Assembly: GCA_905234355.1 (NCBI GenBank)
Contig: CAJOHP010000002.1
Coordinates: 1 to 32,586 of the forward strand
Reading direction: 5' to 3'
Length of the DNA stretch: 32,586 nucleotides
Origin: an uncultured Prevotella sp.
GTDB lineage: Bacteria; Bacteroidota; Bacteroidia; Bacteroidales; Bacteroidaceae
Below, in pieces: positions 27,250 through 32,278 of the stretch (positions are counted from its first letter, which is position 1; each line of letters begins with the position of its first letter). Both the position numbers and the translations under genes were made by a program. The notes beneath the pieces were generated by a model. That model ran no database searches. It was not told where the DNA came from and saw nothing but the letters and a program-made list of their open reading frames with translations.

Positions 27250-27894
27250 ATGAAGATAGGTATTATCGTAGCTATGGACAAGGAGCTGCAGCAGCTGCAG
27301 CAGCTTTTCTGCAGTGCCGACGTGCAGGTCAGGAAGTGCGGCATCGGCAAGGTGAATGCCGCCCTGGGCGCCCAGCGCATGATCAGTGAGTTTGGTCCCG
27401 ACGTCATCATCTCTACCGGCTGTGCCGGCGGCAACGGCGACGACATCCAGGTGCAGGACGTGGTGGTGGGCGCCGAGGTGTGCTATCACGACGTGTACTG
27501 CGGCCGGGCCGTCGACGACACGACAATCTATGGCCAGGTGCAGGGGTTGCCCGCCCGCTATGAGGCCGACCCGTGGCTGCTCCAAAAGGCGCGCGGCATA
27601 GCAGATTGCGACGTGCCCATACACCCAGGGCTCATCGTCACCGGCGACTGGTTTGTGGATTCCAAGGACAAGATGCGCGAGATTATCGGCCACTTCCCTG
27701 AGGCCAAGGCCGTCGATATGGAGTCGTGTGCCATCGCACAGGTATGCTATATTTACAAGGTGCCGTTCATCTCCTTCCGCGTCATCAGCGACATTCCACT
27801 TCGCGACACTGACGCCTCGCAGTACCACAACTTCTGGGACACTGTTGCTGAGCACTCTTTCCAGGTCACAAAGACCTTCATCGAGAGCCTGTGA
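27250..27894 (+). CDS. pfs: 5'-methylthioadenosine/S-adenosylhomocysteine nucleosidase
   Basis: MKIGIIVAMDKELQQL; CGIGKVNAALGAQRMI; STGCAGG; AVDMESCAIAQVCYIYKVPFISFRVISD. Confidence 0.94.
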   Translation: MKIGIIVAMDKELQQLQQLFCSADVQVRKCGIGKVNAALGAQRMISEFGPDVIISTGCAGGNGDDIQVQDVVVGAEVCYHDVYCGRAVDDTTIYGQVQGLPARYEADPWLLQKARGIADCDVPIHPGLIVTGDWFVDSKDKMREIIGHFPEAKAVDMESCAIAQVCYIYKVPFISFRVISDIPLRDTDASQYHNFWDTVAEHSFQVTKTFIESL

Positions 27895-27900
27895 TTGTGA

Positions 27901-27941
27901 ATTGTGAATTATGAATTGTGCATTGTGAATTATGAATTGTA
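27901..27941. repeat. Tandem 21-nt AT-rich repeat between pfs and luxS
   Basis: attgtgaattatgaattgtgc / attgtgaattatgaattgta. Confidence 0.9.
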
Positions 27942-27945
27942 AATT

Positions 27946-30345: not shown

Positions 30346-30493
30346 CTAAGAAAAAACGAAAAACGAGAAATGACCAATAAGAAAAGTCGCTCGGAAAGAA
30401 GAAAATACCTGCCACGAACATAATAAATGTTAAATTGCTGGCGCCGTTGTTCGATTTCTCATCTCTCATTTCTCATTTCTCATTTTATTTGCG

Positions 30494-31039: not shown

Positions 31040-31047
31040 TATCTTTG
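31040..31047 (+). promoter_or_regulatory. Bacteroidetes -7 box (TATCTTTG) for the Rpn gene
   Basis: cactatctttgtgcc, upstream of ATG 31069. Confidence 0.6.
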
Positions 31048-31068: not shown

Positions 31069-32049
31069 ATGATAAAGAACAGATACATCCGCTTCGACTG
31101 GGCTGCGAAGTATATGCTTCGCAACAAGGCCGACTTTGCCATCTTCGAGGGGCTGATCTCCGTGCTGGTGAACGAGAAGGTGACCATCGTGGAACTGCTC
31201 GACACCGAGTCGAACCAAGAGTCGCGCAACGACAAGTACAACCGCGTGGACATCAAGGCCAAGAACTCCAAGGGCGAGATCATCCTGGTGGAGATTCAGC
31301 AGACACGCGAGTACGACTACTTGCAGCGTATGATTTACGGCGTGGCAAAGACTATCACCGAGCACATGAACAGCGGCGATGCCTACCGGAACGTGAAGAA
31401 GGTGTTCAGCATCAACATCATCTACTTCAACATGGGCCAGGGCGAAGACTACCTCTACCATGGACAGACCACGCTAAAGGGCGTGCACACAAACGACAGC
31501 CTGGAGCTGACCGACTATGAGCGCGACGACCTGCAGGTGGTGCCGCCCGAACAGGTGTTCCCCGAGTATTATGTCATTCGTGTGAACGTTTTCGACAAGG
31601 AGACTGTCAACGGCTGGCTGGAGGAGTGGATGGACTACCTGAAGAACGAGCGTATCAATCCCGACACCACGGCTCCCGGCCTGCAGGAGGCCCGCAAGCG
31701 TCTGGACCTGCTGAGGATGACCGATGCTGAGCGCCGCCGCTACGAGCACGACATAGACACGCTGGTGCGCGACACCGACGTGATGCGCACCCAACTGCTG
31801 GAGGCCGAGATAAAAGGACGAAAGCAGGGAATGGCTGAAGGATTGGCCGAAGGACGTGAGAAAGGATTGGCCGAAGGTCGTGAAAAAGGATTGGCCGAAG
31901 GTCGTGAGAAAGGATTGGCCGAAGGTCGTGCCGAAGGAGAAACGAGAAAGGCTTTGGAGTCAGCCAGAAGCATGAAGGCCGATGGCATGCCCATAGAACT
32001 GATAGCAAAATACACGGGACTCTCCATGGAGGACGTTGAGAGTCTATAG
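31069..32049 (+). CDS. Rpn-family recombination-promoting nuclease / PD-(D/E)XK nuclease family protein
   Basis: MIKNRYIRFDWAAKYMLRNKADFAIFEGLISVLV...YNRVDIKAKNSKGEIILVEIQQTREYDYLQRMIYG (nuclease core), C-terminal GLAEGREK repeats and IELIAKYTGLSMEDVESL. Confidence 0.88.
   Translation: MIKNRYIRFDWAAKYMLRNKADFAIFEGLISVLVNEKVTIVELLDTESNQESRNDKYNRVDIKAKNSKGEIILVEIQQTREYDYLQRMIYGVAKTITEHMNSGDAYRNVKKVFSINIIYFNMGQGEDYLYHGQTTLKGVHTNDSLELTDYERDDLQVVPPEQVFPEYYVIRVNVFDKETVNGWLEEWMDYLKNERINPDTTAPGLQEARKRLDLLRMTDAERRRYEHDIDTLVRDTDVMRTQLLEAEIKGRKQGMAEGLAEGREKGLAEGREKGLAEGREKGLAEGRAEGETRKALESARSMKADGMPIELIAKYTGLSMEDVESL
31840..31932 (+). repeat. In-frame 24-nt tandem repeat, ~4 units (GLAEGREK)
   Basis: ggattggccgaagg[a/t]cgtgaraaa at 31840, 31864, 31888, 31912 (last diverges to GLAEGRAEG). 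Confidence 0.95.
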
Positions 32050-32086
32050 TCTGTGAGTATCATATCATAATGTATAACTTTTTACG

Positions 32087-32278
32087 GCACTAACAGAACT
32101 GTATTGCTCTTACAACCAACTTGCCGCTCTCGATGTATCGAAGAACACAGCACTGGAAACACTATATTGCGACAACAACAGCATAAAGGGGGCTGACATG
32201 GATGCACTCATCAGCAGTTTGCCGCAAAGTACTACCAATAGGCCTAAATACTTCTACGTTATAGGTGGGTTCTATTAA
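32087..32278 (+). pseudogene. Truncated leucine-rich repeat protein fragment
   Basis: Open frame ALTELYCSYNQLAALDVSKNTALETLYCDNNSIKGADMDALISSLPQSTTNRPKYFYVIGGFY*; no in-frame start (taa at 32075-32077); stop supplied by the adjoining repeat element. Confidence 0.8.

Follow-up and report, generated by a model that had tools for sequence, protein, structure and literature searches.

The gene at positions 31069-32049 of the window (the whole stretch of 32,586 nt from an uncultured Prevotella sp. that was analysed) adds a member to the known Rpn family, anti-phage DNA nucleases that inhibit themselves. It is probably an accessory toxin-antitoxin gene of rumen-type Prevotellaceae, in which an array of 4-aa repeats would act both as a specificity helix and as the joint between the nuclease core and the C-terminal tail. 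We regard it as a further member of a known system because Zhong et al. 2023 (PMC10327210) describe this system, in which toxic nucleases (RpnL) are inhibited by their separately translated C-terminal part (RpnS), the 4-aa repeats vary between strains and one added repeat breaks recognition, and name Bacteroides fragilis among the species with variable repeats. RpnP2 was shown there to protect against phages. In Rpn, a phage-defence class described only recently, the antitoxin lies inside the toxin gene, and the family studied here suggests how specificity may change without killing the cell, by a single recombination in the array that alters toxin and antitoxin together.

Table 1. Features of the rpn gene and its immediate surroundings (positions in the window).
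Feature	Position	Strand	Basis
The gene's own -7 promoter box (Bacteroidota type), TATCTTTG	31040..31047	+	TAnnTTTG match
Rpn-family nuclease gene (RpnL)	31069..32049	+	intact ORF, 326 aa; Pfam and NCBIfam matches; catalytic residues
PD-(D/E)XK nuclease core, residues 1-235	31069..31773	+	PF12784; alignment to E. coli RpnA
Internal ATG, M217	31717..31719	+	Met in 78/82 homologs (95%); poor start context
Internal ATG, M239	31783..31785	+	Met in 19/82 homologs; poor start context
Ten 4-aa units, GRKQ GMAE (GLAE GREK)x3 GLAE GRAE	31816..31935	+	TRF; unit count
Internal ATG, M255	31831..31833	+	best context of the three; kept in L200, lost in L077
C-terminal (RpnS-like) tail	31936..32046	+	homologous to RpnA antitoxin 7TH0
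Leucine-rich-repeat (LRR) gene remnant	32050..32277	+	intact LRR gene behind rpn in L200 (L200:3585-4424)

The nuclease core and its catalytic residues are preserved. The reading frame is as the earlier note on this DNA had described it, and the family named there, Rpn (COG5464), is borne out by Pfam (PF12784, PDDEXK_2, residues 9-229; 85.7 bits against a cut-off of 27.4, E 5e-24) and NCBIfam (TIGR01784, 'Rpn family recombination-promoting nuclease'; 73.4 bits against a cut-off of 52.1, E 2.5e-20). Alignment to E. coli RpnA places D10, D61, E75, Q77 and R87 on D11, D63, E82, Q84 and R94, with D61 paired by eye and motif because the aligner had shifted it by two columns. All five are invariant in an alignment of 53 sequences, and RpnA mutants at these residues lost or altered activity (Kingston et al. 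2017, PMC5350276). The AlphaFold2 model of the full-length protein has a mean pLDDT of 79 and a pTM of 0.60; Foldseek searches of this model against the PDB and viral models gave no match below E 0.001, and an Rfam search gave no match either.

The C-terminus is homologous to a known Rpn antitoxin. The match to the crystallised RpnA antitoxin 7TH0 covers residues 287-323; its phmmer E of 0.0083 is weak, but it falls in the right place, at the C-terminus, and with a profile built from 53 relatives the E-value is 0.00095. Together with the family matches and the catalytic residues, this homology supports the suggestion that the E. coli layout could exist in this Bacteroidales protein, and the occurrence of the layout in Bacteroidota had already been noted for B. 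fragilis (PMC10327210).

Core and tail are connected by the top-scoring tandem array of the window (TRF array 31838-31930; period 24 nt, 3.9 copies, 95% matches, score 172). The in-frame 24-nt repeats had previously been called exact; the repeats are real, but the copies are near-exact, since any two of copies 1-3 show one or two mismatches in 24 positions and copy 4 ends in GCCGAA in place of GAGAAA. Each 24-nt unit is itself a pair of 12-nt (4-aa) units, GLAE and GREK. Among 70 relatives, array length, measured from the fixed residue E245 before the array to a fixed motif behind it, shifts in whole 4-aa steps: 58 of the 70 lengths fall in one class modulo 4 (chi-square p ~2e-27, uncorrected for relatedness), while modulo 3 and modulo 7 the distribution is flat. 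As every multiple of three bases keeps the frame, the step is truly 12 nt. The number of units ranges from 0 to 35 in these relatives. The earlier note had proposed comparing repeat number between related strains; in our comparison, which covered one genome per species, the gene has 10 units, and two of its nearest relatives, whose cores are ~90% identical to its own, have 8 and ~16. The AlphaFold2 model predicts a single helix (residues 219-304) spanning the array, followed by two short helices, and a helix through the repeats is also the published view, again a prediction, of the repeat-bearing RpnS (Zhong et al., PMC10327210).

By analogy with the E. coli proteins, the full-length product would be a DNA nuclease of the PD-(D/E)XK type with a dimerising helical domain at its C-terminus. 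Separate copies of this domain, produced either by internal initiation or by orphan tails encoded elsewhere, would bind the full-length protein and hold the nuclease inactive until phage infection releases it to cut DNA. The 4-aa repeats would lengthen the first helix of the C-terminal domain and set the choice of partner and, across the family, the array would be the joint that links the nuclease core to different tails. Internal translation in this gene, inhibition, toxicity and phage defence are all inferred.

The source of a separate antitoxin is the least certain part of this scheme. The internal ATGs pointed out before, at 31717, 31783 and 31831, do correspond to residues 217, 239 and 255 and would give products of 110, 88 and 72 aa; the internal translation proposed from them, however, found no sequence support in the form of synonymous constraint, a consistently conserved start with start-like context or an internal promoter motif. 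Synonymous codon variation does not dip around residues 217-255, either in 17 close relatives or in all 82 relatives, and is if anything raised at residues 232-245. A start-context classifier trained on 110 unambiguous starts (AUC 0.90) gave -0.64 for 31831, -3.96 for 31717 and -4.56 for 31783, although it cannot decide for this gene because the true start in the window itself scores low (-1.06). Methionine is found at residue 255 in about 6% of relatives. M217 was rejected as a start despite its 95% conservation, owing to its poor context and to the L, F or M found in this column in the more distant Rpn branch, which makes a structural hydrophobic position an equally likely explanation. Standalone tail ORFs were rejected as boundary markers, several of them being contig-edge cuts or deletion scars; the true ones begin 5 to ~30 residues before the 217 column and therefore do not point to 31831. 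As for transcription, of 74 homologs 61 have TAnnTTTG within 100 nt upstream of the gene, whereas 53 kb of their core coding sequence contains it 3 times; none is found inside the present gene, the absence of a motif being no proof of an absent promoter. An internal transcription start has been seen in E. coli rpn and is not a defining property of the system.

The gene may thus have the core and tail described above and make no RpnS of its own, with inhibition supplied in trans by orphan tails or paralogs, or by dimerisation of its own tail. The unconstrained candidate starts, the poor context at 31717 and 31783 and the missing internal promoter motif are in keeping with this, as is the presence of free-standing tail ORFs in the genus. 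However, the context at 31831 matches that of the true start, and start-like codons are enriched before the array across the family (19 of 69 against 45 of 489 control windows, p 6e-5, without correction for relatedness). Moreover, all E. coli rpn genes tested proved to have an RpnS, as did one from C. difficile (PMC10327210), and the available flanks of the gene hold no orphan tail. We consider a gene with no RpnS of its own rather unlikely; an RpnS from this gene, best started at 31831, is possible but unproven.

The inheritance of the tail is nearly uncoupled from that of the core, and the breakpoints between the two lie in the array. In a comparison that drew on about 80 relatives, identity over the last 33 aligned residues hardly followed core identity (Mantel r 0.10, 74 sequences), whereas core blocks of equal length followed the rest with r 0.74-0.85. 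These included one block nearly as variable as the tail (mean identity 0.43 against 0.37). Paralogs within single genomes illustrate this: L092 and L140 encode identical core proteins and are 97% identical in nucleotides from 14 nt upstream of the start codon through the whole array, beyond which similarity is absent, and two further pairs with identical core proteins carry 5 and 13 units (L149/L150) and 4 and 16 units (L049/L017). Among pairs with similar cores, mean tail identity was 0.45 where the flanks were unrelated (115 pairs) and 0.68 where the downstream flanks were related (six pairs; p 0.003, a small sample); therefore tails either tend to keep to their place while cores move, or travel with the downstream flank. 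The direction of exchange can be argued either way, as the data do not choose between core conversion and tail replacement. Since toxin and antitoxin would read the same tail DNA, one exchange would reset both partners. A genome that carries such paralogs, with identical cores but different tails, already provides the material for an experiment on partner choice.

Most relatives are short-read MAGs in which rpn often breaks contigs, so that single core-tail pairings could be misassemblies. The whole pattern might then be an artefact of contigs misjoined at identical cores, and the frequent position of rpn genes at contig ends fits this. As a control we used a single-contig genome, 99% complete (G045), which has nine full-length Rpn genes, all of the more distant branch, and shows the same pattern. 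Four of its cores (L229-L232) are ~97% identical at the DNA level and carry two tail types. L229 and L232 have tail type A. L230 and L231 have type B, and the stop codon of each is followed, after a gap of two bases, by an ORF of 126 codons that carries a type A tail. Another tail type is common to two unrelated core families (L227/L228 and L233/L234), whose similarity at the 3' end is confined to the array, the tail and a few bases beyond the stop. With shared tails on unrelated cores and adjoining orphan tails in this genome, and a correlation lost over 74 sequences rather than in a few pairs, misassembly is an improbable explanation of the shuffling.

Free-standing tails suggest what becomes of a displaced antitoxin. 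In another genome, rpn is directly followed by a tandem pair of free-standing RpnS-like genes (~78 and 91 aa) that differ in repeat number (L194, G234:C4). Such a layout is left by C-terminal cassette displacement in the Rhs and CdiA toxins; for Rpn we found no description of it in the literature searched. Beside genes of the window's own branch we found no orphan tails, only tandem full-length genes at one locus. Zhong et al. noted that tails are highly variable and that copies found downstream share the type of the gene that precedes them (PMC10327210). We lean, by a little, towards the reading that the 12-nt array serves both as a specificity helix and as a joint for recombination, such that the cores of paralogs are kept alike, tails are exchanged and displaced antitoxins are left behind as free-standing downstream genes. 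If true, this would be one source of orphan RpnS genes and, through the exchange of cassettes, a way for a single cell to acquire new toxin-antitoxin pairs that do not interfere with each other.

The gene appears to be a local arrival in a housekeeping neighbourhood. Contig and window are the same stretch, which stops 537 bases past the gene; the neighbours of the gene are housekeeping genes (typA, rpsO). No defence genes were found nearby, as PADLOC on ten neighbours gave only a generic subtilase and an Mrp-type ATPase. The window is thus no defence island; proximity to defence genes is a tendency of Rpn and does not define it. No rpn was seen behind rpsO (~1.5 kb where the contig allows) in 29 other species sampled, in which rpsO often adjoins typA, and rpn therefore looks like a locus-specific arrival. 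The nearest relatives are found in rumen-type Prevotellaceae MAGs. L200 (RUG11619) is 91% identical in nucleotides from -29 into the array, has (GLAEGREA)x4 and five GRAE units and keeps the ATG at 31831; L201/L077, with a 90% identical core and 8 units, has lost it. The gene's own genome contains six PF12784 matches, five of them full-length, and phage and plasmid records hold only distant relatives (< 60% identity).

An accessory gene with a patchy distribution and paralogs at many loci could also be a DNA-mobilising enzyme or transposase and not a defence gene, as the database name 'putative transposase' has it, and RecA-independent recombination was observed on overexpression (Kingston et al., PMC5350276). 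However, homology between rpn copies usually begins no more than about 100 nt from the start codon and stops in the array or close to the stop codon, the copies having no ends in common, and Zhong et al. reject this role, having seen no terminal repeats or target duplications (PMC10327210); we consider it very improbable. That the gene is a degenerating, functionless copy whose tail varies without constraint is scarcely credible: several relatives do carry scars of deleted rpn genes, but here the reading frame is unbroken and has a promoter motif of its own, the catalytic residues are invariant and rpn tails keep a common pattern.

With E. coli RpnA and RpnP2 (PMC10327210), which are among the closest known systems, the gene shares the nuclease core, the catalytic residues, a homologous C-terminal domain with variable 4-aa repeats in its first helix, the accessory distribution and, in relatives, free-standing RpnS copies downstream. 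It differs from them in belonging to the PDDEXK_2 and not the YhgA branch, in having no evident internal start or internal promoter, in its ten-unit array with an 8-aa higher-order period and in the displaced tails of a different type beside some related genes. The EcoR124I/II type I restriction enzymes likewise change specificity with the number of 4-aa repeats (cited in PMC10327210), although there the repeat sets DNA spacing, whereas in Rpn it is thought to set the choice of protein partner.

The Rhs and CdiA polymorphic toxins have a constant part, a sharp junction, an exchangeable C-terminal part and orphan C-terminal modules downstream, and the Rpn family may be likened to them in all four respects. 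Unlike them, Rpn would exchange the inhibitor or specificity domain and keep the nuclease constant, its joint is a repeat array and its proteins are presumably intracellular.

Some minor observations concern deletions and short repeats. Scars of deleted rpn genes consist of the promoter and 17 codons before a secreted-protein gene (L158:3238-3333), an rpn N-terminus of ~45 residues before an LRR gene (L157, 6334-6225) and the promoter and 5 codons fused to a tail (L200:5193-5371); in L057 an rpn gene has lost most of its core. The window also contains tandem repeats of 7-8 nt at 30454-30485, 27890-27945 and 32-53, the first two near promoter regions. The unit at 30454 (ATTTCTC) has ~60 near-identical dispersed matches in its own genome and many in related species.
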